Shown here: piece after piece, positions 1 to 11,696 of the stretch
Position numbering within the stretch: position 1 is the stretch's first letter
Layout: each line of letters opens with the position of its first letter
Virus record (IMG/VR): IMGVR_UViG_3300025759_000541
Span: 1 to 27,672 of that record
DNA from: a virus
Reading direction: 5' to 3' (one strand)
DNA: 27,672 nucleotides
Notes under the pieces: generated by a model
Database searches by the model: none
Seen by the model: the letters and a program-made list of their open reading frames with translations, nothing else
What the model was told of the DNA's origin: nothing
Position numbers and translations under genes: made by a program

Positions 1-319
1 TTAAGTTAGCATCTAATATCGGTTTTATGAAATAGTCAAATGAAACATCAAAATATTCCGATAATTTTTTAAGGTTAATTGCCTTACATTCATTAGTTCC
101 ACGTTCATATTTTTGAATCTGTTGGAACGTAATATTAATTGCTTTAGCTACCCTAGTTTGAGTATAACCTCTCATAAGCCTAATCTTCTTTAATTGTAAT
201 CCTACAATCTTAGTAAAGATTAACTCATCATCTTTTTCACTTATTCTCCATTGAGCCATTAACTCAATAAGTGATTGGTTGATTTCTTCGATAGTCGTAT
301 TAGTTCTTGGTTTGTGCAT
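1..319 (-). CDS. XRE/Cro-CI family DNA-binding protein, 3' end off the window
   Basis: The reading frame opens at an ATG (317-319) behind an AAGGAGAAAG ribosome binding site and is still open after 106 codons at the left edge, so the C-terminus is missing. Residues about 41-96 form a Cro/CI-type helix-turn-helix: a first helix (VGLQLKKIRLMRG), TQTRVAKAI, then the recognition segment FQQIQKYERG and a following SEYFDVSFDYF helix. The FQQ(V/I)QKYERG wording is typical of the XRE regulators common in alphaproteobacteria. Family membership is clear; the role is inferred. It may repress or tune the divergent control region at 2040-2351, but as the last visible gene of the leftward operon it would then act by feedback. 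It overlaps the preceding gene by 20 bases. Confidence 0.88.
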   Translation of the reverse strand, partial: MHKPRTNTTIEEINQSLIELMAQWRISEKDDELIFTKIVGLQLKKIRLMRGYTQTRVAKAINITFQQIQKYERGTNECKAINLKKLSEYFDVSFDYFIKPILDANL

Positions 320-449
320 TTTCTTTCTCCTTATTTAGTTTGTTATCAATTTCTTTTATTAATCTATTATTTTCATTAATTTGGGTTAATAGAATAATTT
401 TGTAAGCATATAATTCAACACTACTTGCTTCTTCTAGATTAAGCTGCAT
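300..449 (-). CDS. Small hypothetical protein (49 aa), leftward operon
   Basis: A 49-codon frame starts at ATG 447-449 with an excellent AGGAGAG ribosome binding site 5 bases upstream, and its stop lies inside the start of the XRE gene, so translation of the two is coupled. The N-terminal half is mildly hydrophobic and helical (YAYKIILLTQ) and the C-terminal half is charged, with a pattern rich in N, K and E that could form a short coiled coil. I do not recognise a family. The evidence that it is real is the strong ribosome binding site, the tight packing with neighbours on both sides and a continuous frame with no better alternative. It also overlaps the upstream gene by 11 bases. Confidence 0.6.
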   Translation of the reverse strand: MQLNLEEASSVELYAYKIILLTQINENNRLIKEIDNKLNKEKENAQTKN

Positions 450-666
450 TGTTCTCTCCTATATAGTTATATTTGTTGTTGATTCGTTCAAGCCAATCAG
501 AATAGAAATCTAATCTATAATAGTATTCATTATAGAAATTAACCTCGTCTTGAATAAGATCAGGGTTAGTATTAGTGGACATTTCTTCTCTGTATTTAAG
601 GTCTAAGTATTTAAACTTTAACTTTTCCATTAAATATTTGTATTGGTGTTTTTTAATTAAGGACAC
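439..666 (-). CDS. Hypothetical protein (75 aa), GTG start
   Basis: The frame begins with GTG at 664-666, preceded by GAGAGG six bases upstream inside the end of the lipoprotein gene. An in-frame ATG at residue 13 (628-630) lacks a ribosome binding site, so the GTG is preferred; the other choice would give 63 aa. The protein is soluble, rich in Tyr, Asn, Lys and Glu, with a predicted helical N-terminus (EKLKFKYLDLKYREEM) and the tail FYSDWLERINNKYNY. No family is recognised. It overlaps the lipoprotein gene by 14 bases and the next gene by 11, which supports a coupled polycistronic message. A function cannot be given from sequence. Confidence 0.6.
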   Translation of the reverse strand: MSLIKKHQYKYLMEKLKFKYLDLKYREEMSTNTNPDLIQDEVNFYNEYYYRLDFYSDWLERINNKYNYIGENNAA

Positions 667-931
667 TATGACCTCTCGATAAAACGCATTTTCTCATAAT
701 AGACTCATACTTTGTGTCCATTGTTGGGCTAACTGACCAAAATAAAATATTACTAACAAAATTAGAATTTTCTTTTTCTAGTGTTTTACAATGTTGTAAA
801 TCATTAGTTATTTCTTTTGCTTGGTCTGTATCAAAAGTTCCTGATCTTCCAGCAGTATCTATTAAAGGTTTATACGCACACGCAGATAATAGAGTGCAAG
901 AGATCGCTAGGGTTAGTATCGTTTTTTTCAT
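653..931 (-). CDS. Small lipoprotein (92 aa)
   Basis: The N-terminus is a textbook type II signal sequence: MKK, a hydrophobic stretch to residue 14, and the lipobox LSAC with the lipidated cysteine at residue 18. The mature part is about 75 aa, contains Cys48 and Cys82 that could pair in the periplasm, and begins AYKPLIDTAGRSGTFD; a C-terminal RKCVLSRGHSVLN segment resembles small glycine-zipper-type lipoproteins seen in bacteria and phages. The product should be attached to a periplasmic membrane face. Phage lipoproteins of this size are known to act in superinfection exclusion or lysis, but that is only a possibility here. The ribosome binding site (GAGAGG) stands about 12 bases from the ATG, longer than for its neighbours. 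Confidence 0.72.
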   Translation of the reverse strand: MKKTILTLAISCTLLSACAYKPLIDTAGRSGTFDTDQAKEITNDLQHCKTLEKENSNFVSNILFWSVSPTMDTKYESIMRKCVLSRGHSVLN

Positions 932-968
932 ATCTATTTTTTTCCTCTCTATAAAGTTGGTTGATGGT

Positions 969-985
969 ACTTCAAATTATGAAGT
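969..985. repeat. 6-bp inverted repeat (hairpin) directly after a stop codon
   Basis: ACTTCA (969-974) and TGAAGT (980-985) are perfect inverted repeats around a 5-base loop. In the leftward message the hairpin follows immediately after the stop codon of the 986-1276 gene, in the only gap (54 bases) inside this operon. There is no T-run after it, so it is not a classical terminator; an attenuating or RNA-stabilising role is possible. The repeat is short and A/T-rich and may be chance. Confidence 0.35.
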
Positions 986-1276
986 TTAAATGCCAACTCC
1001 TTTTTTTTCTGTTTCAATTTGAACAGTTTTTCCAGTAACACTTTTTCCTTGTGTGTACTCTTGTCGTACTGCTCTTGAACCTGAAACATTTTTTTTGGGT
1101 TCATTAGCTTTCCTTATTTGAGCCACTTGGTTTTCCAAGTAACTATCTACAGGATTGATTAAATCAATTTCGTCCTGTAAATCTTGTAATCCACCAAGAG
1201 TCATATCTCGGTGGAAAATCTGTTTAAACTTTTTAGCAATCTCTTTACTAAAGTTTGAGTTGTTTGGTATTCTCAT
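986..1276 (-). CDS. Hypothetical protein (96 aa)
   Basis: A 96-codon leftward frame starting at ATG 1274-1276, overlapping the preceding stop as TAATG, with GGAAAAC upstream as a modest ribosome binding site. The N-terminal half is helical (FSKEIAKKFKQIFHRDMT then GLQDLQDEIDLI); the C-terminal 40 residues are polar, basic and probably disordered (EPKKNVSGSRAVRQEY). No signal peptide, membrane segment or recognised motif. The location in a coupled operon with other very small genes suggests an accessory, early-expressed role such as host modulation, but this is inference from context only. Confidence 0.6.
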   Translation of the reverse strand: MRIPNNSNFSKEIAKKFKQIFHRDMTLGGLQDLQDEIDLINPVDSYLENQVAQIRKANEPKKNVSGSRAVRQEYTQGKSVTGKTVQIETEKKGVGI

Positions 1277-1431
1277 TATTTGTTTTCCTTTGTTACTTTT
1301 TCTGTAGCCTTAACAAATATATCTAAAAATTCTTTTAAATCATTATCAGTTAAGTTTTTCATACTTGCAGAATGTTTATCTGCTAATTTTCTAACTTCAG
1401 TTAATGTTTTGTTATCCCAATTATTTTTCAT
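1276..1431 (-). CDS. Small hypothetical protein (51 aa)
   Basis: A 51-codon frame with ATG at 1429-1431 behind GGGGAGAGAAGTA, one of the best ribosome binding sites in the operon. It starts by overlapping the stop of the 21-residue upstream frame (TAATG) and ends by overlapping the next start in the same way. The protein is charged and helical, beginning MKNNWDNKTLTEVRKLADK, with a C-terminal ATEKVTKENK tail; it looks like a compact two-helix protein. No family is recognised. Being wedged between two one-base stop/start overlaps makes a real gene much more likely than chance. Confidence 0.55.
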   Translation of the reverse strand: MKNNWDNKTLTEVRKLADKHSASMKNLTDNDLKEFLDIFVKATEKVTKENK

Positions 1432-1496
1432 TACTTCTCTCCCCATATTAAAGTTATTACTATAGATAATGCTAAAGCTAAATATAAATGTTCCAT
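1431..1496 (-). CDS. Tiny single-pass membrane peptide (21 aa)
   Basis: ATG at 1494-1496 opens a 21-residue frame, MEHLYLALALSIVITLIWGE plus K, that is almost entirely one hydrophobic transmembrane helix. It begins one base after the stop of the 1498-1854 gene, with GGGGG about eight bases upstream, and its TAA overlaps the next ATG. Its own 3' end (GGGGAGAGAAG) supplies the ribosome binding site of the following gene, so this stretch could also be only a leader. Tiny membrane peptides are frequent in phages; no specific role can be assigned. Confidence 0.4.
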   Translation of the reverse strand: MEHLYLALALSIVITLIWGEK

Positions 1497-1497
1497 T

Positions 1498-1854
1498 TTA
1501 ATTTTCCCCCACAACATATGAGTAATGATTTTGAGGGTGTGGATATAATCCTAAATCTGTAAAAAATTTTACAAATTTTACTTCAAGTTCCTGACCCAAT
1601 GTCCAAAAATACTCGCTGTCATGTGATAGATAATCCCATGAGTTAGCACCGTCCATTGATAAATGAAATTTATTTTTATCATTAAGCCAGTAATAAAACC
1701 AAACCTTACGACCTAATACTTCATCAGTTGCTGAAACTTCTTTTACACTTTCTGAATTAGGACACGTTCTAACTTGAACACTTTTCTTATCCCAACCGTC
1801 AGGTAATATTTCAGTTAAGATTTTAATTAATTGTTTTTCTGTAAGTTTTTTCAT
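1498..1854 (-). CDS. Hypothetical protein (118 aa)
   Basis: The frame starts at ATG 1852-1854, overlapping the previous stop (TAATG), with GGAGAGAG eight bases upstream. It encodes a soluble, aromatic-rich protein: a helical N-terminus (MKKLTEKQLIKILTEILPDG), a central segment with DEVLGRKVWFYYWLNDK and a C-terminal part with YLSHDSEYFWTLGQELE and FFTDLGLYPHPQNHYSY. The alternation suggests a small alpha/beta fold. I do not recognise the family. It is the largest gene of the leftward operon and has no membrane or secretion signal. Confidence 0.65.
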   Translation of the reverse strand: MKKLTEKQLIKILTEILPDGWDKKSVQVRTCPNSESVKEVSATDEVLGRKVWFYYWLNDKNKFHLSMDGANSWDYLSHDSEYFWTLGQELEVKFVKFFTDLGLYPHPQNHYSYVVGEN

Positions 1855-2039
1855 TATGCTCTCTCCTTGTTATTAATTAAATGGAAATAATCACTTGGGA
1901 TATAATTTTTTGGATATACACCAACTTTGTCATGGTGCGTATCTCCATGTTTTTCCATACATGGTTTGCAAAAGCTATTTGAAAAAGGGTGTGTCCAAAT
2001 TTCTTTTGGTTGATCGTTACAAATTAAACATTTCTTCAT
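1854..2039 (-). CDS. Small zinc-ribbon-like protein (61 aa), first gene of leftward operon
   Basis: Residues Cys4, Cys7, Cys24 and Cys27 (CLIC and CKPC) make a CxxC-N16-CxxC pattern typical of a small zinc-binding knuckle; His17 and the HGDTHH run may help. The chosen start is ATG 2037-2039 because it has AAAGGAGAGAGA directly upstream; an earlier in-frame ATG at 2073-2075 would add 12 Asn/Lys-rich residues and consume that ribosome binding site. The gene heads the leftward transcription unit and its stop overlaps the next start (TAATG). Zinc-ribbon mini-proteins in phages often bind nucleic acid or host RNA polymerase, but no such role is shown here. Confidence 0.6.
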   Translation of the reverse strand: MKKCLICNDQPKEIWTHPFSNSFCKPCMEKHGDTHHDKVGVYPKNYIPSDYFHLINNKERA

Positions 2040-2104
2040 TCTCTCTCCTTTGTTATTGTTTTTTTTAATTAACATATTTAAGTATTTAACTATAAAACAA
2101 GTTG

Positions 2105-2114
2105 TATTGCAATA
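2105..2114. promoter_or_regulatory. Perfect 10-bp palindrome, operator candidate
   Basis: TATTGCAATA is a perfect dyad lying 66 bases upstream of the leftward operon's first start codon. The weak -35 element of the leftward promoter (TTGCAA) is its core, so a repressor bound here would block that promoter. No second copy was seen nearby, and operators of Cro/CI proteins usually occur in sets, so this remains a candidate. Confidence 0.35.
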
Positions 2115-2242
2115 GCTTTATTTATCGCATAAAACCTAGCTTTTTTAACTAATTTAACCCTTACAAGTTTTATTTCTTGTTTTATTTTCAAATCAGATAT
2201 AAAAAACGAATCAATAAAGATATGAATATAAAAAAAAAAATG

Positions 2243-2346
2243 CTAGAGAGAACTGTCGCAAGACAAGTATTTATATTTTCATATCATAATACTTCGGCTG
2301 ATCTGAATACCTCTCTCTTATTTGGGTCAGCCATTAATAGGGAGAA
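2243..2346 (+). promoter_or_regulatory. Structured 5' leader RNA candidate with possible pseudoknot
   Basis: Upstream of the start at 2352 four pairing elements follow each other. TGTC-GCAA-GACA (2254-2265) is a 4-bp stem capped by a GNRA tetraloop. AAGTATT (2265-2271) pairs with AATACTT (2288-2294), with an inner ATAT-TTTC-ATAT stem (2273-2284). GGCTGA (2296-2301) pairs with TCAGCC (2327-2332). AGAGAG (2245-2250) can pair with CTCTCT (2311-2316), which crosses the GGCTGA stem and would make a pseudoknot. The same CTCTC can instead pair with GGGAG (2340-2344), the ribosome binding site of the next gene. This is the layout of a translational switch, but it is read by eye only and I recognise no named riboswitch class. 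Confidence 0.4.
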
Positions 2347-2351
2347 TAGAG

Positions 2352-2648
2352 ATGAAGCAACTAGATATATTTGATACTGACTACGAGTCTTGTAATTATA
2401 CTGACACAAGCCAACAAGCACTTGCCACAATAAAACCTAAAATAAAAACTAAAAGAGAACAGGTTTATGATTTTGTAAAACTACAATCATCTACTAATTA
2501 TGAAATATCAGATGAATTAGAAATGCCTTTGAGTTCTGTTTGTGGTAGGGTTAGAGAATTACAAATTTTAAATTTGGTAGAGGACTCTGGTTTAAGACGA
2601 GAAACTAAATATGGAAAACAAGCGATAGTATGGCAAAGAAAAAAGTAG
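2352..2648 (+). CDS. Winged-helix DNA-binding protein (98 aa), first rightward gene
   Basis: The start is ATG 2352 behind AGGGAGAATAGAG; an upstream TTG at 2322 in the same frame would overrun that ribosome binding site and the leader hairpin, and is rejected. Residues about 36-95 form a small winged helix: KTKREQVYDFVKLQ, TNYEISDELEMPLSSVCGRV as helix-turn-helix with the recognition helix at SSVCGRVREL, and a wing ending KYGKQAIVW. This pattern (SSV-GR-REL, GxxRxTKYGxxAIVW) is frequent in phage early proteins, presumed regulators. It leads the rightward early genes and overlaps the nuclease gene by 19 bases. The first 30 residues are polar and probably unstructured. Confidence 0.75.
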   Translation: MKQLDIFDTDYESCNYTDTSQQALATIKPKIKTKREQVYDFVKLQSSTNYEISDELEMPLSSVCGRVRELQILNLVEDSGLRRETKYGKQAIVWQRKK

Positions 2649-2962
2649 CTACAAAGGACGAGAGAGAGCATATGAGCAAGGTTGCTAGTTTAGGGTGTTG
2701 GGTATGTCAAAGACCAGCTAATGTGCATCACATACGTCCCATTGGGCTAGGAATAGGCAGAAGATCAAGCCACTACGATACCATTCCACTTTGCTACGAA
2801 CATCATCAAGGACAATTCAGTATTCATAACTGTAAGCAACAGTTTGAAGATATGTATGGGAAAGAAACTTTTATATTACAGGAAGTAAAAAAATTAGTAG
2901 CAGACATGGAACAAGCAAACGACTTATTTAATTTTTACAACAAACATAAGGGAGAACTATAA
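2630..2962 (+). CDS. Ref-like / HNH-type nuclease (110 aa)
   Basis: The protein shows the ordered metal-binding and catalytic pattern of Ref-type recombination nucleases related to phage P1 Ref: Cys23-x2-Cys26, the His33-His34 pair in NVHHIRPIGLGIGRR, SSHYDTIPLC with Cys55, His58-His59 in the EHHQG motif, and His66 in SIHN, followed by QFEDMYGKET. In that family the nuclease is RecA-dependent and cuts DNA at displaced strands; by inference it helps phage recombination or host DNA breakdown. It begins ATG 2630 inside the preceding gene and ends with a TAATG overlap into the next. An alternative name would be a DUF968/HNH protein; the HH-x23-HH layout favours Ref. Confidence 0.75.
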   Translation: MAKKKVATKDEREHMSKVASLGCWVCQRPANVHHIRPIGLGIGRRSSHYDTIPLCYEHHQGQFSIHNCKQQFEDMYGKETFILQEVKKLVADMEQANDLFNFYNKHKGEL

Positions 2963-3126
2963 TGGCAGAAATGAGAGATGAACACTTTGAGGTAATATCT
3001 AACAATAGAGCAAGAGAGTATGAGAAACAAAAAAAGACCACAAATATAATTAAGACTCTGTTAAACAGATATTCAAAAAAACAATTAATCGAGATGATCG
3101 AGAAAGAGAGCAATAATGGAATCTAG
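2962..3126 (+). CDS. Small helical hypothetical protein (54 aa)
   Basis: A 54-codon frame opened by ATG at 2962-2964, overlapping the previous stop as TAATG, with GGGAG about six bases upstream. It overlaps the next gene by 11 bases. The sequence is charged and helix-forming (EHFEVISNNRAREYEKQKKT then NIIKTLLNRYSKKQLIEMIE). No family is recognised. Small proteins of this kind lie beside replication genes in many phages, but the role here is unknown. Both flanking overlaps support it as coding. Confidence 0.6.
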   Translation: MAEMRDEHFEVISNNRAREYEKQKKTTNIIKTLLNRYSKKQLIEMIEKESNNGI

Positions 3127-3685
3127 AAAGTCGGGCTATTTTTTAGTCTATCGTGATGTTTGGAAACACAAAGTCTTTAAGAATTTAATTCAATCTAGTA
3201 TTTGGCTTTATATGATTAGTTCAGCTAGTCATCAGGATAAAACTCTAAGATTTTTAGATAGTCCAATATTTGTTAAGAGAACTGAATTAATATTTCCATT
3301 AAGAAAGAACTCTACGATTTGGGGAATAAGCTATTCTGAAATGAGAACTTTAATCCTAAGGTTGAAAAGACGAGGCATGATTAGCACTCGTTTGCACCAC
3401 CTACAGCCCAGCAACAACCACCCTAGCCGAAAAATAACGATAATAAGTGTTATAAACTACGACAAATTTCAGTACGTAGATGACACGCAACCACCTACAG
3501 CCCACCTATCGCCTCATACTAATAAACAAGTAACTAATAAACAAATACTAACTAGTGAGATTAAAAAGTCTAGCAAGGAAGATTATGAAAAAGTAGGAGA
3601 AGAAGGTCATTACGTTATACTCCGAAAAGACAATAAGAAGTATTTGAAACATAAATTTAAAGATGAACCTTTGAAAGCCTATTAA
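3116..3685 (+). CDS. Helix-turn-helix replication-type protein (189 aa)
   Basis: The N-terminal 95 residues resemble the winged-helix domain of phage replisome organisers and primosomal proteins: GYFLVYRDVWKHKVFKN, then SIWLYMISSASHQ, a segment FPLRKNSTIWGISYSEMRTL, and RLKRRGMISTR as recognition helix and wing, ending in a beta segment KITIISVINYDKFQ. Residues 120-165 are a polar linker rich in Thr, Asn and Lys, and the C-terminus GHYVILRKDNKKYLKHKF is basic. In related phages such proteins bind the origin and recruit the replicative helicase; that is inferred, since no helicase or polymerase gene is in the window. It starts inside the previous small gene and ends with a TAATG overlap. Confidence 0.65.
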   Translation: MESRKSGYFLVYRDVWKHKVFKNLIQSSIWLYMISSASHQDKTLRFLDSPIFVKRTELIFPLRKNSTIWGISYSEMRTLILRLKRRGMISTRLHHLQPSNNHPSRKITIISVINYDKFQYVDDTQPPTAHLSPHTNKQVTNKQILTSEIKKSSKEDYEKVGEEGHYVILRKDNKKYLKHKFKDEPLKAY

Positions 3686-3819
3686 TGAAAAATATACTTC
3701 GTATTTTTAAATATTGCAGAAAACGTATAATTGCTTTAAGTATTGAAAATAGACAACTTAAAATGCAAATTGAATATCTTAGAGCAATAATACAATCTGA
3801 CGACAATGTTAAACATTAA
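3685..3819 (+). CDS. Small basic coiled-coil-like protein (44 aa)
   Basis: ATG 3685 overlaps the replication-type gene's stop (TAATG) and the frame ends at TAA 3817-3819, again overlapping the next ATG. The 44-residue product begins with a basic amphipathic stretch (MKNILRIFKYCRKRIIALSI) and continues with ENRQLKMQIEYLRAIIQSD, which has a leucine/isoleucine heptad pattern suited to a short coiled coil. No family recognised. Its evidence is the exact one-base coupling on both sides rather than homology. It may be a partner subunit of a neighbouring DNA protein, but this is a guess. Confidence 0.55.
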   Translation: MKNILRIFKYCRKRIIALSIENRQLKMQIEYLRAIIQSDDNVKH

Positions 3820-4127
3820 TGCCACAATTAGAACACATTTCATATGGGAGAAAAAAGATTAAGGTTAGCTTTGAAATCCTAGAACAAATGTATGCTTATT
3901 ATGAACCCAATAAAAACTTGCTTGTGATTGATAAGAGAGTAAAAGGATTAAAGCTATTCAATACGATCATGCACGAGTTATTTCATATTATAATTAATCT
4001 AGCTGATATAAATGTTAATAAACGAGGAGAAGAACCTATTGCACAGGCTATTGGAGATGGCTATGAGAAAGTCTTTAGACAGAACCCTAAACTATGGACA
4101 TTACTCACAAAATTACTAAAAGTATGA
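3819..4127 (+). CDS. HExxH metallopeptidase-like protein (102 aa)
   Basis: The centre carries the zinc-protease motif His52-Glu53-Leu-Phe-His56 in MHELFHIIINLADI, preceded by a beta strand NLLVIDKRVKGLKLFN, and followed by Glu71-Glu72 in KRGEEPIAQAIGDGYEKVF, which supplies a likely third zinc ligand. This HExxH...E layout is that of small gluzincin-like peptidases such as the ImmA/IrrE group and SprT-like proteins. ImmA-type enzymes cleave phage repressors, and an XRE regulator does exist in this window, so regulated proteolysis is one idea; it is inference. At 102 aa it is a minimal catalytic domain. It overlaps the methyltransferase gene by four bases (ATGA). Confidence 0.68.
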   Translation: MPQLEHISYGRKKIKVSFEILEQMYAYYEPNKNLLVIDKRVKGLKLFNTIMHELFHIIINLADINVNKRGEEPIAQAIGDGYEKVFRQNPKLWTLLTKLLKV

Positions 4128-4666
4128 AAAGCACAACTTTATCTTACATTGGACATAATGCTAATAACGATAGAAACGAAAATGATTTTTACGAAACACC
4201 ATTAGACGCAATACAAGATTTAATTAAACATGAAAAATTTGATGGTAAAATTTGGGAATGTTCTTGTGGGAATGGTGCTATTTCAAAACCTTTAATTGAT
4301 AATGGTTATAATGTTTATAGTTCAGATTTAATTGATAGAGGTTATGGAGATATAAAGGACTTTTTAAAAACAAATGAAAAACATGATAATATTATAACTA
4401 ACCCACCTTTTAATATTGCTACAGAGTTTGCTTTACATGGATTAAATTCTATTAATAACAAAATGGCTTTATTGCTTAAATTATCATTTTTAGAAGGTAA
4501 AAAAAGATCATCTGTTTTATTTAGTCAAAATAATTTAAAAAAAGTATTAGTATTTTCAAGAAGATTAGGTTTTAAGAAAAAAGATAAAAAAGGTGGACTA
4601 ATGGCTTTTGCTTGGTTTATATGGGAAAAAGATTATAATGGAAAACCTAAAATTGAATGGTTATGA
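4124..4666 (+). CDS. DNA N6-adenine methyltransferase-like protein (180 aa)
   Basis: Motif I (S-adenosylmethionine binding) is ECSCGNGAIS at residues 45-54, an acidic motif II is SSDLIDRG around Asp68, and motif IV is NPPF at residues 93-96, the signature of amino-methyltransferases that act on adenine N6. The opening DFYETP (21-26) is common in phage Dam-like enzymes. I prefer ATG 4124, which gives the usual ATGA overlap with the previous stop; ATG 4094 in the same frame would add 10 residues. No restriction enzyme partner is visible, so this is an orphan methyltransferase that may protect phage DNA. No target-recognition domain is obvious; the C-terminal part is lysine-rich. Confidence 0.82.
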   Translation: MKSTTLSYIGHNANNDRNENDFYETPLDAIQDLIKHEKFDGKIWECSCGNGAISKPLIDNGYNVYSSDLIDRGYGDIKDFLKTNEKHDNIITNPPFNIATEFALHGLNSINNKMALLLKLSFLEGKKRSSVLFSQNNLKKVLVFSRRLGFKKKDKKGGLMAFAWFIWEKDYNGKPKIEWL

Positions 4667-5043
4667 AAAACGACATAAATAAGACAAATGACACAATTCA
4701 AACACAATCTATAGGACGACCTAAGAAAGAACTAGATGAAGATGTTATTGCAAAACTTAGTCAGATAGGTTGCACACAAGAAGAAATAGGTGCTGTTGTT
4801 GGAATATCTGCTAGAACACTACAAAGACGATATGCCGATCTAATACAGGATAATAAAAACATTGGTAGAAGTTCACTTAGAAAAAAACTATGGTCTAAAG
4901 CTATGAGAGGACAAGGAAACGATAAACTACTTATTTGGTTATCTAAACAAGAACTAGGTATGCAAGATAGAGTTCACACTACATCTACTGTTGAACCATT
5001 ACCATTAATCATAGAAGCTAAAGCAGAAGATATAGATGGCTAA
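4663..5043 (+). CDS. terS: Small terminase subunit-like DNA-binding protein (126 aa)
   Basis: The start is ATG 4663, overlapping the previous stop (ATGA); an ATG two codons upstream is possible. The protein has GRPKKELDED at residues 18-27, then a helix-turn-helix (TQEEIGAVVGISARTLQRR, about 38-56), then a helical part RSSLRKKLWSKAMRGQGNDK and the short motif LLIWLSKQELGMQD. This order (GRPKK, helix-turn-helix with TLQRRYAD, then KLLIWLGKQxLGQxD) is that of small terminase or DNA-packaging proteins in many alphaproteobacterial phages. It would recognise the packaging site and deliver DNA to the large subunit. The large-subunit gene is 3.4 kb away rather than adjacent. Confidence 0.72.
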   Translation: MKNDINKTNDTIQTQSIGRPKKELDEDVIAKLSQIGCTQEEIGAVVGISARTLQRRYADLIQDNKNIGRSSLRKKLWSKAMRGQGNDKLLIWLSKQELGMQDRVHTTSTVEPLPLIIEAKAEDIDG

Positions 5044-5173
5044 ACAAAAATTTACACACTTTATTCCAAGAGATAAACCACCTAAAAGAGGTGCTGGAAA
5101 ACATAAGAAGAATAAATCAAAACACGAAAAACGACAACAAAAACAAACAAGGTATAAAGGACAAGGGAGATAA
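5036..5173 (+). CDS. Small highly basic protein (45 aa)
   Basis: A 45-codon frame begins ATG 5036, inside the last codons of the small-terminase gene, and ends TAA 5171-5173, just before the next start. The protein is strongly basic (FIPRDKPPKRGAGKHKKNK) and contains no acidic residue except one Asp and one Glu. The opening FTHFIPRDKPPKRG is a wording I associate with small proteins in marine phages. A role in binding nucleic acid is chemically plausible. The reading frame is not broken by its very high Arg/Lys content and the coupling to both neighbours supports it. Confidence 0.6.
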   Translation: MAKQKFTHFIPRDKPPKRGAGKHKKNKSKHEKRQQKQTRYKGQGR

Positions 5174-5174
5174 T

Positions 5175-5348
5175 ATGGAAGATATAGGAGAGAATACTTT
5201 TCTTAAATTAAGAGAAGAAAAACTAAGACTCAAAGAAGAACTAGAGCAAGTAAAAATACAAAGAGATATTGCTCTTAAAAGACTTAAAAAAATATCAACA
5301 ACATTAGCATCAGTAGTGGAGTATATCAATGGAAGTAAAAAGAAGTAA
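5175..5348 (+). CDS. Small coiled-coil protein (57 aa)
   Basis: The start is ATG 5175, directly after the previous stop and behind AAGGGAGATAAT; a more upstream ATG in the same frame (5091) would read through the whole basic gene and lacks a ribosome binding site. Residues 8-45 are one long charged helix (FLKLREEKLRLKEELEQVK and on) with a clear Leu/Ile heptad, then TTLASVVEYINGSKKK. It should form a coiled-coil dimer or trimer. No family recognised. It overlaps the next gene by 20 bases. Confidence 0.6.
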   Translation: MEDIGENTFLKLREEKLRLKEELEQVKIQRDIALKRLKKISTTLASVVEYINGSKKK

Positions 5349-5538
5349 TTTCTATCCAAATGGTGAGATAATAGATTATTCATTACCTCAATCATTTAAA
5401 AAGAGTTTAACAAAAGAAGCCTGTGGAAACTGTGGTTTATATTCTAACAGACGTAGCTTCTGTGGTAGATGGGGAAGCAAAGGTGTTAAAGATAGTTATA
5501 TTTGCCATGAGTGGAGAAAAAGGTTCTTTCAAAGATAG
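5329..5538 (+). CDS. Four-cysteine zinc-knuckle-like protein (69 aa)
   Basis: Cys32 and Cys35 (ACGNCGLYS), Cys45 (SFCGRW) and Cys59 (YICHEW) make a compact four-cysteine array suited to one zinc ion or an iron-sulphur cluster. Aromatic and basic residues surround the cysteines, and the C-terminus is basic (WRKRFFQR). Proteins with this CxNC...YCxxW...C..W pattern are common as small hypothetical genes in marine phages; their role is not known to me. ATG 5329 lies inside the preceding gene. The 20-base gap after it is the first unlinked junction for about 2.3 kb. Confidence 0.6.
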   Translation: MEVKRSNFYPNGEIIDYSLPQSFKKSLTKEACGNCGLYSNRRSFCGRWGSKGVKDSYICHEWRKRFFQR

Positions 5539-5558
5539 TTTTGTGATATTTATGCCAC

Positions 5559-5831
5559 ATGGCTAAATATAAAAACAGAACTGTAAAACTTAACAAACCA
5601 ATGCGTGGAGATGTTAAGAAGTTTAAGGTATTCGTAAAAGACAGAAGTACAGGCAGAGTTAAGAAGGTTAATTTTGGCTCTAAGACTATGTCTATCAAGA
5701 AGAATATTCCAGCTAGGCAAAAAAGTTTCTTTGCTAGATTCAGACCTATATTAGCTAAAGTTAAAGGTCAGAAGAATTTAAGTCCAGCATATTGGGCAAT
5801 ACAATCATGGAAAAAAGGGTTTAAAGTATGA
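5559..5831 (+). CDS. Basic phage protein of the KLNKPMRGDVKK family (90 aa)
   Basis: The beginning VKLNKPMRGDVKKFKVFVKD, followed by TGRVKKVNFGSKTMSIKK and ARQKSFFARF, matches a family widespread in marine and T4-like phages, usually written ...NFG(D/S)xxMxIKxxxPxRRKSFRARHxC...YWSCKxW. Here both cysteines usually found in its C-terminal half appear to be replaced (FARFRPIL and YWAIQSW). The family is small and very basic; its molecular role is unknown, with virion or DNA-associated placement suggested by its neighbours. It starts ATG 5559 with no strong ribosome binding site and overlaps the next gene by four bases (ATGA). Confidence 0.68.
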   Translation: MAKYKNRTVKLNKPMRGDVKKFKVFVKDRSTGRVKKVNFGSKTMSIKKNIPARQKSFFARFRPILAKVKGQKNLSPAYWAIQSWKKGFKV

Positions 5832-5923
5832 TTGATAGATTTTTATATAAATTCTTTAGCTTATTAGATGATTTCTTTGATAAGTTTATTTCAGATGCAC
5901 CTAAAAAAAGGAAAAAGAAATGA
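5828..5923 (+). CDS. Tiny amphipathic protein with basic tail (31 aa)
   Basis: ATG 5828 overlaps the previous stop as ATGA, and TGA 5921-5923 overlaps the next ATG. The 31 residues start with an aromatic amphipathic helix (DRFLYKFFSLLDDFFDKF) and end with PKKRKKK. The A/G-rich codons of that basic tail (AAGGAAAAAG) serve as the ribosome binding site of the next gene. The pattern, amphipathic helix plus cationic tail, could associate with membranes. No family known; coupling on both sides is the main evidence. Confidence 0.5.
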   Translation: MIDRFLYKFFSLLDDFFDKFISDAPKKRKKK

Positions 5924-6084
5924 GAGATAACAAAGTATTAGAGTCGTTTAAAAAAAAACTAGAAAAGAATTTAAAAGAAATGAATATCTTTAAGCATTTA
6001 AGACAAGAAGTAAATCATGGTGCTAATGGTACACAAGGCTATGTAATTAAAAAAGGTATTAACAAAGGTAAAGTTGCTAAATGA
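5920..6084 (+). CDS. Small hypothetical protein (54 aa)
   Basis: This 54-codon frame starts ATG 5920 with AAGGA upstream and overlaps its neighbours by four bases on both sides (ATGA). It is lysine-rich (KVLESFKKKLEKNLKEMN) and then has HLRQEVNHGANGTQGYVIKK, a Gly-containing segment that looks like a folded end. No recognised family or motif. Its position just before the exported-protein cluster and its exact coupling support expression. Function unknown. Confidence 0.55.
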   Translation: MRDNKVLESFKKKLEKNLKEMNIFKHLRQEVNHGANGTQGYVIKKGINKGKVAK

Positions 6085-6716
6085 GGTTAAACATGAATTA
6101 TTATTTTACAGGTGTTTTGATTGTTCTGATGTTTCTTCTAACTTTGTTAGAACCAGCATATCCTGACTCTACACAATCAAATGTAAGTGGTAGCAATACT
6201 GCAATCGAGGGTGGATATACATCTTCATCTAGTACAACTTTTCAATCAGGTTCATCATCAAACACTACATCTAATTCTACCAATCATTCTAATATTAAAT
6301 CAGCACCACCAACAGCTTCTGCACCATCATTCTCTGCTCAATCACAAGACGTTTGTGCAACAGGAGTATCAGTAGGTATTCAAACATTTGGTACAGGATT
6401 TTCAGGGGGTAAGACTAATAGAGATATGAACTGTGAAAGAATTAAGTTAGCTAAAGTTCTTTATGACTTTGGAATGAAAGTAGGAAGTGTGGCTTTATTG
6501 TGTCAAGACGAGAGAGTCTTTGAAGCTATGATTAATGCTGGAACACCTTGTCCTGTAGATGGTAAGATAGGTAATGAAGCATTAAAGATTTGGAATAGAT
6601 ATGAATTTGAAAGACCAGATTATGAAACTTATGTTAAAAGAATTAAAAAGAGAGAAGTAATAGATAATAAAATAAACAAAGAAGAAGCTAAAAGATTAGA
6701 ATTACATACTAAATGA
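6081..6716 (+). CDS. Membrane-anchored or secreted protein, Ser/Thr-rich stalk (211 aa)
   Basis: Residues 8-24 are a hydrophobic anchor or signal segment. Residues 28-75 are a low-complexity Ser/Thr/Asn stalk. A conserved-looking domain starts at SAPPTASAPSFSAQSQDVC and has Cys92, Cys118 (NRDMNCERIKLAKVLYDFGM), Cys141 (ALLCQDERVFEAM) and Cys157 (AGTPCP), which could form two disulphides. This cysteine domain belongs to a family repeatedly seen in marine phages but without known function. The charged C-terminus (YVKRIKKREVIDNKINKEEA) is helical. The gene overlaps both neighbours by four bases. The topology suggests action in the periplasm or on the particle surface; neither is shown. Confidence 0.7.
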   Translation: MRLNMNYYFTGVLIVLMFLLTLLEPAYPDSTQSNVSGSNTAIEGGYTSSSSTTFQSGSSSNTTSNSTNHSNIKSAPPTASAPSFSAQSQDVCATGVSVGIQTFGTGFSGGKTNRDMNCERIKLAKVLYDFGMKVGSVALLCQDERVFEAMINAGTPCPVDGKIGNEALKIWNRYEFERPDYETYVKRIKKREVIDNKINKEEAKRLELHTK

Positions 6717-6826
6717 TTTGGATAATAACATTAATAATAGGATTTGCTTATGCGAATTATCTCTCTGATAAGTGGGCTAATGCTCTTAACCCTTACAATT
6801 TCAGCAGAAGAAATAACAACAGATAA
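6713..6826 (+). CDS. Possible nested membrane peptide (37 aa)
   Basis: ATG 6713 makes an ATGA overlap with the preceding stop and opens a 37-codon frame that ends at TAA 6824-6826, running 77 bases into the next gene in a different frame. The product starts with one hydrophobic segment (MIWIITLIIGFAYANYLSD) followed by a polar basic tail (SRRNNNR). Nested small membrane proteins occur in phage lysis cassettes, but none of the expected neighbours is adjacent. It may simply be a leader that couples translation of the 6750 gene. Confidence 0.35.
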   Translation: MIWIITLIIGFAYANYLSDKWANALNPYNFSRRNNNR

Positions 6827-7994
6827 TCTAATTAGCCAAGACTTCACAGATGGCTCATGGAATAATCCTGTAAATAGTTGGCACGCACCAAACGACTTAG
6901 CTGGTTGGAATGGATTAGAACATACAACAGAAGTTACTTACACACCTGAAACAGAAGCATTAAAACAAAATGGATTTGAGATGAATGCTGGTGGAGAAAT
7001 ATTTCATTGGTACAACGGACAAACAGTTCATGTTAATCAATCAGTAACATTAGATAATGGAACTGTATTTGAGCAAACAAAAAGCTATACAGCTTCAAGA
7101 GGTACAGTACATGATGTAGAAAATACTATTGTTATTAATTCTAATACAAGTGAGTCTTATGATTTAGGTATGGGAATATTATTTGAAGATACTAGAGGTC
7201 AAGTAGGACATTACTCTGCTGATTTCCGTGACCCTTTTATAACCCTTACTTATGATGACACAGTATTTCAATTAGATGAAGTTGTAGAACAAGAACTAAC
7301 AGATTTATTTACTGAATTTAAACCAGAAAAAGATTTAAAATTAGAGGAAACATTTAAAGTAGTTGAGTTGTTTAATGACCCTATTGAAATGAAAGAAGAA
7401 TTAAAGATTGAAGAATTTACAGAGATAGTATCTATGCCAGAAAAAGAGCCTGAAGTAATTGAAGAAATGCCAAATGTTACAGAAGAAATTGTAGAAGAAA
7501 AACCAGAAGAAGAAGTAATTACAGAAGAAATTATTCAAGAAGCTAAAGAGGAAATACCAGAAGAAACTAAAGAAGAAGAAGTTATTGAGGAAGCACCAAA
7601 GGAAACCACAGAAGAAACACCTAAAAAAGAAATTAAAACAAAGGTAGCAAGTAAGAAAAGCAAGAAACCTAAGATAGATAAGATTATGGCTAAAGTAGAT
7701 GCACAAGTAAAAGATAGTGCTAAAAACTTAGTTATTAAAAACATTATTAAATTAGATGCTATGCAGAACGATCAGGCTTCATTAGTTGATTACAATAATG
7801 CTGTATTTTATACACCTAAAGATATTTATTTGAATCAGATTGAGATATTTGATAATAGGTCTATCTATAAGAATGTTGATTTAGTTCAATATATTGATAA
7901 TGATATAATGGAGATCAAGATTAAAAAATTAAACGAAATAAAGTATAAGAAAAGAATATTACTTTTAGAATTACAGGAGTTGAAAAATGGTTAA
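6750..7994 (+). CDS. Secreted protein with Glu/Pro-rich low-complexity region (414 aa)
   Basis: ATG 6750 is chosen over TTG 6744 because AGGA lies about eight bases upstream and the product then begins with a clean signal peptide (MRIISLISGLMLLTLTISA, cleavage before EE). Residues 20-170 are a beta-rich domain with many Asn, Thr and aromatic residues (GWNGLEHTTEVTY, FHWYNGQTVHVNQSV, YDLGMGILFEDTRGQVGHY). Residues about 180-300 are an acidic, repetitive Glu/Pro/Val/Ile stretch (EEKPEEEVITEEIIQEAKEE), then a Lys-rich link and a C-terminal helical part. The order is signal, globular domain, spacer, C-domain, as in surface or periplasm-spanning proteins. No named family. The end overlaps the next gene by eight bases. 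Confidence 0.68.
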   Translation: MRIISLISGLMLLTLTISAEEITTDNLISQDFTDGSWNNPVNSWHAPNDLAGWNGLEHTTEVTYTPETEALKQNGFEMNAGGEIFHWYNGQTVHVNQSVTLDNGTVFEQTKSYTASRGTVHDVENTIVINSNTSESYDLGMGILFEDTRGQVGHYSADFRDPFITLTYDDTVFQLDEVVEQELTDLFTEFKPEKDLKLEETFKVVELFNDPIEMKEELKIEEFTEIVSMPEKEPEVIEEMPNVTEEIVEEKPEEEVITEEIIQEAKEEIPEETKEEEVIEEAPKETTEETPKKEIKTKVASKKSKKPKIDKIMAKVDAQVKDSAKNLVIKNIIKLDAMQNDQASLVDYNNAVFYTPKDIYLNQIEIFDNRSIYKNVDLVQYIDNDIMEIKIKKLNEIKYKKRILLLELQELKNG

Positions 7995-8259
7995 AAATAT
8001 TAAAGATAATCTAACAAACATAGTAGTCATCTTAGGACTTATAGCTTCTATTGGTGCTGGATTTACAAAGTTTGCTAAGATGGAATCTACAATCGAGCAA
8101 CTATCAAATCAAACTGCACCAGATTTACAAGGCATAGATAATAATAGTTTTGCTATCATAGATATAGATAAGCAAGTGGCTATATTACAAAAAGAAATTG
8201 AAGTATTAAAATTAGAAATATCTGAGATTAAAGAAAGCAACAAAAACCCACTTCAATAA
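7987..8259 (+). CDS. Single-pass membrane protein with coiled coil (90 aa)
   Basis: After a short basic start (MVKNIKDNLT) comes one transmembrane helix (residues 11-27, NIVVILGLIASIGAGFT), then a linker and a heptad-patterned helix at residues 55-85 (IDIDKQVAILQKEIEVLKLE). The layout, short cytoplasmic N-terminus, one membrane span and an outside or inside coiled coil, is common in phage accessory and lysis-related proteins but is not diagnostic. A ribosome binding site CAGGAG lies upstream inside the previous gene. The stop overlaps the next ATG by one base. Confidence 0.65.
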   Translation: MVKNIKDNLTNIVVILGLIASIGAGFTKFAKMESTIEQLSNQTAPDLQGIDNNSFAIIDIDKQVAILQKEIEVLKLEISEIKESNKNPLQ

Positions 8260-8480
8260 TGCACTATGTATTAGCCTTTAGTATCTGCTCTGCAATCACA
8301 GGCTTTTGTAATAGTACATCATTAGTTCCTGTGAAGTTTAATACATGGTCTGAATGTGTTATAGGTGGAAGTCAATTAACTATTGAATATACAATTAAAA
8401 TGGAAGAAAAAATAAATAAGGATAAACTCTATATCACTTATTTCTGTAATGAAAATATCTCTGACAAAACCCCAACTTAA
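8259..8480 (+). CDS. Small exported four-cysteine protein (73 aa)
   Basis: The first 17 residues (MHYVLAFSICSAITGFC) are hydrophobic, consistent with a signal sequence. Cys10, Cys17, Cys33 (NTWSECVIGG) and Cys63 (YITYFCNEN) could form disulphides in the periplasm. A similar arrangement, hydrophobic start, WxECxxxG and a FC near the end, recurs in small marine phage proteins placed next to terminase genes; their role is unknown. Its last 32 bases overlap the large terminase gene in another frame. Confidence 0.62.
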   Translation: MHYVLAFSICSAITGFCNSTSLVPVKFNTWSECVIGGSQLTIEYTIKMEEKINKDKLYITYFCNENISDKTPT

Positions 8481-9684
8481 AGTATCATCTAGTCAAGCAA
8501 GGTTTAGAGTTCTTATAAGTGGTCGAAGATTTGGTAAAACTTATCTATGTATTACCGAGATGATGAAGTACGCAACAAAGCCTAAACAAAAGATATGGTA
8601 TGTTGCACCTACCTTTAAGATGGCGAAAGAAATCGTATGGGCTAATCTAAAAGAAATGCTTAATCAGTTTAACTGGATAGAAGATATAAACGAAACAAGC
8701 ATGACTATCACAATAAGACAATCCAATAGCACAATCTCATTAAAGGGTGCTGATAATTATGATTCATTAAGAGGTAGTGGATTAGACTTTTTAATTTTAG
8801 ATGAGTTTGCAGATATAGATAAACGAGCATGGTTTGAAGTATTACGTGCTTCTGTTGCAGATACTTTAGGGAAAGTTCTTATGTGTGGAACTCCAAAGGG
8901 ATATGGTAATTGGTCTTATGAAATGTATTTAAAAGGTAAGCAAGATAAGGAATGGGATAGCTATCAATATACTACTATTCAAGGTGGTATGGTGTCTAAA
9001 GAGGAAATAGAACAGGCTAAACAAGATATTGATATTAGAACTTTTAGACAAGAGTTTGAGGGTACATTTGAGAACTATGCTGGTTCAGTTTATTATAACT
9101 TTCACCCAGTTGAGAATGTAGTTAAAAAAGAAATTGATTGGGAGAAGCCTTTACATATTGGAATGGACTTTAATGTCGATCCCATGAGTGCTTGTGTTGC
9201 ACAATTAGACAAAGATAAAATATACTTTCTTGATGAAGTTATTATTTATGGAAGTAATACAGATGAAATGGTGCAAGAATTAAGAGATAGATATGGCACA
9301 AAGATTCCAATAATCATATATCCTGACCCAGCTTCTAAACAAAGAAAGACATCTGCTGGAGGTAGAACTGATTTAAGTATCTTACAAAATGCTGGTTTTA
9401 AAGTTAAAGTTAAGAATAAACACCCAGCTATTAGAGATAGGGTCAATGCTGTTAATAGTAAGCTAAAAGATTCTAATGGCGAAAGACATATTTTTGTTTC
9501 ACATTCTTGCAAAACATTGATAAAAGGTTTACAAAGACAAATATACAAGGAGAATACAAATATTCCTGATAAGGAAGATGGCTTCGATCATATGAATGAC
9601 GCACTTGGTTATATGATTGATTACTTAAAGCCATTAACTACACAGGTAAGATTTAACCCTCCTTCAAGATGGACAATGAAATAA
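8449..9684 (+). CDS. terL: Terminase large subunit (411 aa)
   Basis: This is the DNA-packaging motor. The ATPase domain has Walker A GRRFGKT (residues 25-31), Walker B FLILDE (114-119) and a coupling motif MCGTPKGYG (145-153). The C-terminal RNase-H-like nuclease has GMDFNVDP with catalytic Asp240, YPDPAS around Asp302, and GFDHMNDALGY with Asp384. Length is normal for compact phage terminases, and no domain is missing. ATG 8449 lies inside the previous gene. It would pump DNA through the portal and cut it. The small-subunit-like gene sits 3.4 kb upstream, so the two may still be on one message. Confidence 0.96.
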   Translation: MKISLTKPQLKVSSSQARFRVLISGRRFGKTYLCITEMMKYATKPKQKIWYVAPTFKMAKEIVWANLKEMLNQFNWIEDINETSMTITIRQSNSTISLKGADNYDSLRGSGLDFLILDEFADIDKRAWFEVLRASVADTLGKVLMCGTPKGYGNWSYEMYLKGKQDKEWDSYQYTTIQGGMVSKEEIEQAKQDIDIRTFRQEFEGTFENYAGSVYYNFHPVENVVKKEIDWEKPLHIGMDFNVDPMSACVAQLDKDKIYFLDEVIIYGSNTDEMVQELRDRYGTKIPIIIYPDPASKQRKTSAGGRTDLSILQNAGFKVKVKNKHPAIRDRVNAVNSKLKDSNGERHIFVSHSCKTLIKGLQRQIYKENTNIPDKEDGFDHMNDALGYMIDYLKPLTTQVRFNPPSRWTMK

Positions 9685-9687
9685 ATT

Positions 9688-11094
9688 ATGGCATACACTA
9701 GAGATCAAGCAATCGAAACCCACAAAGATTACGCAGAAACAATTAATAATTGGGAATACTATATCCGATCTTATAATGGTGGTTATGACTATATGACAGG
9801 ACAGTATCTTAGCAGATACAATTTAGAATTAGATAACGAGTTCAATCAAAGACTAGCTAACACTCCATGCGACAATCATTGTAAAAACATCATTCAAATA
9901 TACTCATCATTTTTATTTAGAGTTAGACCAAGTAGAGATTTTGGTTCTATGCAAGACGAGGCTTCATTACAAAACTTTTTAAAAGACGCAGACTTAGAAG
10001 GTAACAATTTAAACGCAGTAATTAAACAGGCTCAAAACTATGCTTCAATCTATGGTCAATGTTTTATGATTTTAGATAAGCCTAATATTCAAACTAATAC
10101 AGCAGCAGAAGAATTAGACCAAGACATCAGACCTTACTTATCAATCGTTACTTCTGAAAATGTTTTAGATTGGAACTATGTTAGACAACCTAATGGTAAA
10201 TACGAACTAGACTATTTAAAAATTAGAGAAGAAGTTGATAGAGATGGTGGTACTTACATGAGGATTTGGTACTTAGATAGAATTGATACTTTGTATATGC
10301 CAGAAAGAGAAGAACCTAAATTAATTGATAGTGTTCCTAATACGATTGGTAAAATACCAGCAGTTATTTTATATAATTCTAAATCACACAAAAGAGGAAT
10401 AGGTCAATCAGATTTAACTGATATAGCTGATCTACAAAAATCTATTTACAATGAATACTCTGAAATGGAACAATTAATCAGATTAACTAACCACCCATCT
10501 TTAGTTAAGACTCCAAGTGTTAATGCAAGTGCTGGTGCTGGTGCAGTTATTGAAATGCCTGATGAATTAGAACCAAACTTAAAACCTTATTTATTACAAC
10601 CATCAGGTTCTAGCTTACAATCAATAATGGATTCAATTAACAACAAAGTTGAATCTATAAATAGAATTGCACACACAGGTGCTATTAGAACTACAAAGAC
10701 AGGGATTAGTTCAGGTGTTGCATTACAAACTGAATTTGAATTACTTAATGCTAGACTATCTGAAAAAGCTGACAACTTACAAATTGCAGAAGAACAATTA
10801 TTTAATCTATATGCTATGTTCCAAAACACTACATTTGATGGTGAGATTAATTACCCAGATTCATTTAACATTAGAGATTACGCAACTGATCTTATGTTCT
10901 ATCAACAAGCAAAAGCAATCAATGTTCAATCTCCTACATTAATGAAAGAGATAGATAAAGAAATAGCTAGAGCAGTAGTTGATGATGATGAAAAACTAAA
11001 TGATATATTTAATGAGATAGATAGTAATTCAGAAGTTGGAGAATTTACACAAGACGAAGTAGAACAAGAATCTGTAGCTGAAGAACAGATATAA
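9688..11094 (+). CDS. Portal protein (468 aa)
   Basis: Placed directly after the large terminase, with length and composition normal for a portal. Visible elements are an N-terminal helical region (NWEYYIRSYNGGYDYMTGQY), a core segment with NHCKNIIQIYSSFLFRVRP, the wing with PYLSIVTSENVLDWNY, a conserved-looking GQSDLTDIADLQKSIYNEYS helix that would line the channel, and a long helical C-terminus including GISSGVALQTEFELLNARLS. This is the portal type related to SPP1 gp6/DUF4055-like proteins. It forms the dodecameric ring for DNA entry, exit and tail attachment. The C-terminal 40 residues are acidic. It ends next to a terminator hairpin. Confidence 0.88.
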   Translation: MAYTRDQAIETHKDYAETINNWEYYIRSYNGGYDYMTGQYLSRYNLELDNEFNQRLANTPCDNHCKNIIQIYSSFLFRVRPSRDFGSMQDEASLQNFLKDADLEGNNLNAVIKQAQNYASIYGQCFMILDKPNIQTNTAAEELDQDIRPYLSIVTSENVLDWNYVRQPNGKYELDYLKIREEVDRDGGTYMRIWYLDRIDTLYMPEREEPKLIDSVPNTIGKIPAVILYNSKSHKRGIGQSDLTDIADLQKSIYNEYSEMEQLIRLTNHPSLVKTPSVNASAGAGAVIEMPDELEPNLKPYLLQPSGSSLQSIMDSINNKVESINRIAHTGAIRTTKTGISSGVALQTEFELLNARLSEKADNLQIAEEQLFNLYAMFQNTTFDGEINYPDSFNIRDYATDLMFYQQAKAINVQSPTLMKEIDKEIARAVVDDDEKLNDIFNEIDSNSEVGEFTQDEVEQESVAEEQI

Positions 11095-11118
11095 AAAAGG
11101 CGACCATTAAGATCGCCT
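11093..11118 (-). terminator. Rho-independent terminator for the leftward gene (possibly bidirectional)
   Basis: AGGCGA (11098-11103) and TCGCCT (11113-11118) form a 6-bp stem with a 9-base loop. Read leftward, the stem is followed by six T residues (complement of the A run at 11093-11098), a classic intrinsic terminator 22 bases past the stop of the 11140-11577 gene. Read rightward, the stem is followed by ATTTCATT, a weaker T-tract, so some rightward termination after the portal gene is possible. Confidence 0.8.
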
Positions 11119-11139
11119 ATTTCATTAGTTAGTTAATTA

Positions 11140-11577: not shown

Positions 11578-11604
11578 TTTCTCTCTCCTTTTATTTATCT
11601 ATAA

Positions 11605-11633
11605 AATCTATAAAAAATTGATATAAAGGTCAA
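11605..11633 (-). promoter_or_regulatory. Sigma70-like promoter of the inverted gene
   Basis: On the minus strand TTGACC (11633-11628) matches the -35 consensus at five of six positions. It is followed after 17 bases by TAGATT (11610-11605), or after 15 bases by TATAGA (11612-11607), and then by an A/T-rich leader with AAGGAGAGAGA before the start at 11577. This is the best promoter match I see in the window and supports separate expression of the inverted gene. Confidence 0.65.
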
Positions 11634-11646
11634 ATAAAAACGAGCA

Positions 11647-11694
11647 TAGTATTTACTAGCTTTTTGGAGTATATATTAGAACATAATTAGAACA
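11647..11694. promoter_or_regulatory. Palindrome and 11-bp-spaced direct repeat upstream of the head genes
   Basis: TAGTA-tt-TACTA (11647-11658) is a perfect dyad. Further right, ATTAGAACA occurs twice (11675-11683 and 11686-11694), spaced 11 bases, about one helical turn, ending right before the ATG at 11697. A weak -10-like TATATT (11672-11677) overlaps the first copy. This could be an operator for the divergent pair (inverted gene and head-morphogenesis gene). No good ribosome binding site is present just before 11697. Confidence 0.35.
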
Positions 11695-11696
11695 AA

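Follow-up and report, generated by a model that had tools for sequence, protein, structure and literature searches.

Sequence comparison indicates that, in a group of phages related to cultured phages of the abundant ocean bacterium Pelagibacter, an operon begins at its 5′ end with a conserved structured RNA of approximately 130 nt. The element consists of three hairpins (P1, P2, and P3) and two crossing long-range pairings (PK1 and PK2). The sequence analyzed, here called the window, is virus record IMGVR_UViG_3300025759_000541, positions 1 to 27,672 (27,672 bases), and its features are listed in Table 1. The best matches of window 1500-6700 among phage records are Pelagibacter phages HTVC202P, HTVC111P, HTVC026P, and HTVC112P. 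Viral contigs and the genomes of three cultured pelagiphages, HTVC111P, HTVC202P, and HTVC026P, yielded at least 100 distinct leaders, including that of the window. They comprise 70 leaders of the HTVC111P type (the window among them), 25 of the HTVC026P type, 4 of the L353 type, and L402. The comparison of 100 leaders strongly supports the structured, pseudoknotted leader proposed in a first-pass annotation of this DNA, and all four pairings proposed there were found in place. However, the start given there (2243) is too late, and the 5′ strand of PK2, which lies upstream of it, was missed. A conserved RNA heading an operon in cultured HTVC111P, HTVC202P, and HTVC026P represents a concrete, testable regulator.

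TABLE 1 Features of the leader and its surroundings (window positions unless a locus is named)
Feature	Position	Strand	Remark
Conserved stretch CAAATCA-TATAAA-CGAATCA, possible promoter core	2189..2213	+	Identified by eye
PK2 5′ strand GAUAUGA, containing AUG (2222-2224)	2219..2225	+	Pairs with 2279-2285
Possible upstream reading frame	2222..2374	+	Runs through PK1 and past gene start
PK1 5′ strand AGAGAGA	2245..2251	+	Complementary to P3 loop
P1 hairpin UGUC-GCAA-GACA	2254..2265	+	GNRA loop in 93 of 100 leaders
P2 A/U-rich hairpin	2265..2294	+	AAGUAUU 2265-2271 with AAUACUU 2288-2294
PK2 3′ strand UCAUAUC, within P2 loop	2279..2285	+	Pairs with 2219-2225
P3 hairpin, 14 bp	2296..2332	+	2296-2309 with 2319-2332; loop CCUCUCUCU, 2310-2318
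Ribosome binding site (RBS) GGGAGA	2340..2345	+	Alternative partner of P3 loop
First gene of rightward operon, MKQLDIFD..., 98 aa	2352..2648	+	phrog_1123, function unknown
CTCTCTC-loop hairpin after second RNA	L073, about 1214	-	Similar in L019, L021, L063, and others

A search with the first-gene protein returned 98 relatives, of which 80 loci were kept. The P2 pattern is present in 72 of these 80 loci. Also among the 80 are two loci in which the leader is present with a shorter P2 (L046 and L066), one with the leader on the other strand (L078), two that are incomplete (L039 and L050), and three in which the leader was not seen (L076, L077, and L079). Additional relatives were obtained by scanning viral contigs with P2, upstream, and P3 patterns and by a search with the HNH gene; chance matches from two of these pattern scans (L092 and L094 among them) were excluded, since neither the purine strand nor the P3 hairpin is present in them. 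Since the leader set was partly selected on the CTCTC or poly-T loop, loop conservation was judged on the 72 P2-anchored loci, whose choice is blind to the P3 loop sequence. CTCTC is found downstream in 71 of them, and the remaining one (L055) has a poly-T loop. Matches of the P2 pattern in genome contigs had, among the matches listed, mostly unrelated bacterial titles and were not used as evidence. A descriptor scan of the loci collected by that stage gave 163 matches, in which contigs may count twice; in 300 loci whose sequence had been block-shuffled (60 bases per block), it gave no match.

A model built without the window (R1) detected the leader of the window at an E value of 7e-11. It found one leader per record in all 17 records, three of which have an additional weak match that overlaps the leader in the opposite orientation. 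No leader was found with R1 in two genomes titled Pelagibacteraceae or in 297 genomes of the order of a genome with that title, the latter being a weak negative (E limit of 0.001, stricter filters, and no positive control). Likewise, R1 found none in HTVC100P, Greip, Baldr, HTVC027P (1-49000), and HTVC112P (1-9000), where other matches had E values of 1.1 or worse, and none in HTVC112P 4067-12843 at an E limit of 1.

The fold energy of the window leader alone is not exceptional (z score of -1.14, with 23 of 200 shuffles folding equally well), so the single-sequence fold is uninformative and the proof of structure is comparative. The GNRA-capped stem and the A/T-rich hairpin of the first-pass annotation correspond to P1 and P2, respectively. 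GGCUGA/UCAGCC (2296-2301 with 2327-2332) does pair but is merely the base of the longer P3, and the possible pairing AGAGAG/CTCTCT is corrected to one between a hairpin loop and an upstream strand (PK1). P1 stems range from 3 to 8 bp and vary in sequence and length; one of the 100 leaders gave no stem in a search that carried a small bonus for GNRA loops. P2 is weak alone (-2.4 kcal/mol in the window), and its own 3′ side pairs over a mean of 6.4 bp versus 4.7 bp when shuffled (44 distinct cases), with no two-sided covariation. The P3 stem is 10 to 15 bp long across the leaders, its loop displays CUCUCUC, and in the window it is an unbroken stem with three G-U pairs (-16.4 kcal/mol).

Because P1 and P3 come from best-stem searches, their complete pairing is partly by construction, and re-dealing and shuffling serve as the controls. 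Among the 100 leaders, P3 has 46 distinct arm pairs. When its 3′ arms were re-dealt to other leaders, pairing fell from 100%, a value given by construction, to 48% and reached at most 59% in 500 trials, a drop that is not given by construction. MAFFT misaligns the P3 of unlike stem families, so P3 was counted by arm and on 43 leaders with alignable P3 stems, in a MAFFT alignment not fitted to the structure. In this alignment, the cells paired, the two-sided changes, and the covariation score were all above those of all 500 shuffles, and the number of further pair types was reached by 3 of the 500. Slid pairing registers dropped to 35 to 61% paired. The eight basal pairs of P3 are 99.1% paired, with two-sided changes at six. 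With RNAalifold on 22 diverse leaders, PK2 was the only consensus helix and was found unprompted, with two-sided changes at one pair and a small covariation term (-0.09); P3 was missed, probably because unlike stems do not align. The check for covariation suggested in the first-pass annotation, run by means other than R-scape, was thus passed by P3 and PK2, and the variation of P1 is compensated. Comparative evidence of this kind indicates that P1, P3, and PK2 are conserved structure and that PK1 is a near-universal complementarity. In some leaders, P2 and P3 are separated by an additional hairpin or insert with the rest kept (L012, L021, and L053 [insert AACTTGGTAACAAGTT]), and L029, L038, and L166 have longer inserts there with the remaining leader intact. 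P3 was also considered as a terminator and rejected, as it has no U-run and the terminator scan lists none there.

PK2 occurs in two versions, GAUAUGA/UCAUAUC and GUUAUGA/UCAUAAC. Its second pair is A-U in 68, U-A in 25, G-U in 3, U.U in 3, and C.A in 1 (L402) of the 100 leaders and is therefore kept in 96. In the 43 aligned leaders, 98.0% of the PK2 cells are paired, with 16 two-sided changes at the second pair (A-U 22, U-A 16, G-U 2, other 2). The two-sided change is confined to this one pair and may go back to one or two events in evolution. Relative to the other helices, PK2 is nested with P1, and it crosses both PK1 and the stem of P2. In the minimum-energy fold of 2219-2372, PK2 is formed in place of P2, which suggests that the two may be alternatives or form a true knot. 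The inverted repeats of the leader are also palindromic DNA, and the conserved unit might be an operator or a cruciform, with TATGAT in the PK2 5′ strand, which we take to resemble a -10 hexamer, serving as a -10 box. Such a DNA-level element is very improbable, since it is at odds with the 93 GNRA loops in 100 leaders, with the G-U wobbles that make up 189 of 1,265 tabulated P3 pairs, and with the spacing between the PK2 strands, which differs among leaders; nor would a -10 box account for the swap between A-U and U-A, which involves both ends.

The GAGAG strand of PK1 and the P3 loop can form at least 5 bp (wobbles included) in all but one of the 100 leaders, and in the window the duplex of AGAGAG (2245-2250) with the loop has a predicted energy of -9.6 kcal/mol. 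PK1 is 94.9% paired in the 43 aligned leaders, with two-sided changes at two pairs in one leader each; its covariation is thin because both sides are nearly invariant. One clear compensated replacement is found in L055, in which the 5′ strand, the loop, and the RBS have changed together (CAAAA, UUUUUU, and AAAGG, respectively). When the strands were re-dealt with L055 included, the observed value was reached by 2 of 500 trials with Watson-Crick pairs and by none of 500 with wobbles. Without L055 the test is not passed, as 57 of 500 trials do as well, which indicates that the covariation of PK1 rests on this leader.

In all 100 leaders, the start codon of the first gene lies 15 to 21 nt past P3. 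The genes that follow encode 89 distinct proteins, which fall into 14 single-linkage blastp clusters, that is, unrelated families. The two largest clusters contain 48 and 25 leaders, together 73 of the 100. As the second cluster equals the HTVC026P group in size, independence from the gene is shown mainly in the group of the window. The description of the window's first gene as a winged-helix gene is unsupported, as it has no Pfam match up to an E value of 0.01 and belongs to a PHROG of unknown function. It is followed by an HNH-like gene, and similarity to DnaD-like helicase loaders is seen for the gene at 3116. The leader precedes the rightward operon in HTVC111P and HTVC202P and the leftward operon in HTVC026P. 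By eye, the possible promoter core can be seen again ahead of many leaders in the window's group, and CAAATCA is also found upstream in the HTVC026P group. In addition, a block, TTTATCGCATAAAACCTAGCTTTTTTAAC, lies upstream of the leader at window 2121-2149 and has a similar form in both leader groups; it is possibly a regulator site of the divergent promoters.

A riboswitch appears unsupported, since the first genes belong to 14 blastp families, although two of them account for 73 of the 100 leaders. A leader responsive to the product of its own gene, which the first-pass annotation had also considered, is unsupported as well, since the same leader stands directly before 14 unrelated families and on either operon. 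No conserved unpaired core beyond the GNRA loop was noticed among the leaders. The first-pass annotation could name no matching riboswitch class; at the gathering score, Rfam 15 gave no matches in the window and none in 10 relatives, and a relaxed search gave none up to an E value of 5 in window 2080-2380.

A promoter-proximal RNA that acts on RNA polymerase by antitermination or antipausing, like the put RNA of phage HK022, would be tied to the start of the operon and indifferent to the gene. Consistent with this, the leader is present in a single copy in each of the 17 records, heads the rightward operon in some phages and the leftward one in another, and precedes first genes of 14 families; it recalls the HK022 put sites, which the available part of the source describes as structured RNAs near early promoters (PMC9378689). 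However, window 1800-12800 has no more terminator-like sites than chance predicts (3 versus 3.2 expected on both strands), and an RNA of this kind would not need the fixed distance of 15 to 21 nt to the start codon. This explanation appears unlikely. A 5′ structure that stabilizes the mRNA or shields it from RNases, without any switch, would be in keeping with the stable hairpins and long-range helices found close to where the transcript probably begins, ahead of several gene families. It leaves the conserved CUCUCUC loop and the fixed start-codon distance unexplained and is improbable.

The leader is probably a control element for protein synthesis. The explanation that we consider best, with about an even chance of being correct, is a cis-acting leader that tunes the translation of the first gene, with PK1 as the ON state and the freed loop on the RBS as the OFF state. 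We infer control of translation in cis from the fixed start-codon distance before different genes and from the complementarity between loop and RBS in the window's group. An element bound to the promoter might equally act on transcription. P3 would fold as a rigid stem and present CUCUCUC, which matches purine-rich Shine-Dalgarno sites. In the ON state, the upstream GAGAG strand would hold the P3 loop (PK1) and PK2 would connect the P2 loop with the far 5′ end, leaving the downstream RBS free. Occupation or melting of the 5′ strand by a ribosome, a protein, or an RNase would release the loop, which in the window's group could then bind the RBS and give the OFF state. If true, such a loop-RBS switch would be a portable on-off module.

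The alternative pairing of the loop with the RBS (GGGAG, 2340-2344) proposed in the first-pass annotation is possible in the window, with a duplex energy of -8.7 kcal/mol. In the window's group, the loop and the RBS pair over at least 6 bp in 64 of 70 leaders; by comparison, loop pairing of at least 6 bp is found at 3 of 37 picked ORF starts in the window, the leader's own included. Besides the first gene, these comprise the gene at 2962, whose RBS region (2942-2961) is complementary to the loop over 7 bp, and the gene at 3116, whose RBS region (3096-3115) is complementary to it over 6 bp. In the HTVC026P group, the loop pairs with the RBS over at least 6 bp in 9 of 25 leaders and over at most 4 bp in 12, and 5 of the 25 have no Shine-Dalgarno-like motif. 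Overall, at most 4 bp are formed in 17 of the 100 leaders. The poor RBS pairing and the missing Shine-Dalgarno motifs of the HTVC026P type imply that the OFF state cannot be the sole function. Thus, the two exclusive states proposed originally are compatible with the window and with most leaders of its group, although they are not conserved across the leaders as a whole.

The 5′ strand of PK2 contains an AUG. The reading frame that begins there has no stop codon up to the end of PK1 in 98 of 99 leaders (approximately 40 expected if the frame were random). Of the 74 leaders without the UCAUAAC loop, 52 keep the frame open between PK1 and the start of the gene (26 expected). In 22 of the 25 leaders of the HTVC026P group, it has exactly 11 codons and ends just past PK1. 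The deposited genome of HTVC202P has a hypothetical protein, gp12 (L084:1588-1776), whose annotation spans the leader. This protein is in frame with the PK2 AUG and begins 45 nt upstream, and it is either the upstream reading frame extended by these 45 nt or a misannotation. A coding origin of the conservation was considered, but changes in P1 length shift the frame and the amino acids past PK1 are unconserved. The openness of the frame is not accounted for in this way and is treated as a rival explanation.

The frame might be explained by a translation-coupled attenuator, in which a ribosome on the frame starting at the PK2 AUG would switch the leader by melting both PK2 and PK1. Both counts of open frames above expectation, the 11-codon frames of the HTVC026P group, and the gp12 annotation in frame with the AUG agree with it, although the counts are not independent since the leaders are related. 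On the other hand, no Shine-Dalgarno sequence was seen by eye before the AUG, the phase of GAGAG relative to the AUG varies among leaders (63/23/13), the peptide past PK1 is unconserved, only 2 of the 25 HTVC026P-group frames are open beyond PK1, and the AUG is also fixed by the PK2 pairing. We regard an attenuator of this kind as distinctly unlikely. An equally doubtful extension is a translation-sensing double-pseudoknot leader, in which a ribosome starting at the PK2 AUG would unzip PK2 and then PK1 within approximately 10 codons, and the freed anti-Shine-Dalgarno loop, CUCUCUC, would close the RBS of the first gene and perhaps also those of other genes with GAGAG sites (at 2962 and 3116 in the window). 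If true, the leader would be a portable RNA control module that reports on the supply of ribosomes as infection begins.

A second conserved RNA candidate was observed in the relatives (...GCTCCC...GA[CCCA]TCAGGGAGACTTGG[TGGG]TC; L366:3022-3108 on the plus strand and L073:1287-1373 on the minus strand). It has 34 distinct copies, 33 of which were aligned, and no match in the window. Its 6-bp stem is paired in all 198 cells, with two-sided changes at five of the six pairs. The cells paired and the covariation score are above those of all 500 shuffles, but the count of changed pairs (reached in 102 of 500 shuffles) and the number of pair types (409 of 500) do not exceed them. In L366, the second RNA lies between converging ORFs downstream of the leader, and it has no Rfam match at the gathering score. 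A hairpin such as ACTAGGGTGGT-TTCTCTCTCTT-ACCACCCTAGT follows 3′ of the second RNA in HTVC111P-type relatives, and its loop displays CTCTCTC, as in P3 of the leader.

Pelagiphages are described as ubiquitous and highly abundant in the portion of PMC10504331 at hand. In the open-licence literature, neither a description of this leader nor work on pelagiphage RNA regulators was found, which does not prove absence from print. The accessible portion of an article on structured RNAs of Pelagibacter (PMC2704228) contains no occurrence of the word “phage,” and the phage RNAs named in the available section of a survey of structured RNAs are c4, c4-a1b1, Lacto-int, manA, and wcaG (PMC2864571). The SAM-II and SAM-V riboswitches are likewise compact, pseudoknotted leaders near a start codon; unlike them, the present leader has no Rfam match, no metabolic gene context was seen for it, and its RBS pairing is not conserved. 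The manA and wcaG RNAs of marine cyanophages are Rfam families, whereas the window matches no Rfam family. They resemble the leader in being structured RNAs of marine phages, and the same section of the survey places them in T4-like cyanophages, wcaG together with exopolysaccharide genes (PMC2864571). In the split ribosome binding site of T4 gene 25, RNA structure likewise lies between a purine-rich strand and a phage start codon; according to the excerpt available, the structure there brings a distant Shine-Dalgarno sequence near (PMC3014915), whereas the RBS of the present leaders usually adjoins the start.

The T4 gene 32 leader (the gp32 operator) is, in the same excerpt, the leader of a phage mRNA in which a 5′ pseudoknot precedes the ribosome binding site; the pseudoknot lies 67 nt upstream of the start of one gene, whose product binds it (PMC3014915). 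Unlike that leader, the present one precedes 14 gene families and has a loop complementary to the RBS. Control of the gp32 type requires one fixed gene, which the present leader does not have. The put RNA of HK022, as far as the available text goes, is approximately 70 nt long, has two stem-loops, and acts on RNA polymerase (PMC9378689). It lies near early phage promoters and is not tied to one gene; the present leader, likewise a structured RNA, appears independent of the gene that follows, and the operon that it heads is probably early. The present leader differs in having three hairpins and two long-range pairings over approximately 130 nt and in abutting the start codon. Antitermination by HK022 put and the control of T4 gene 32 are the nearest known comparisons.
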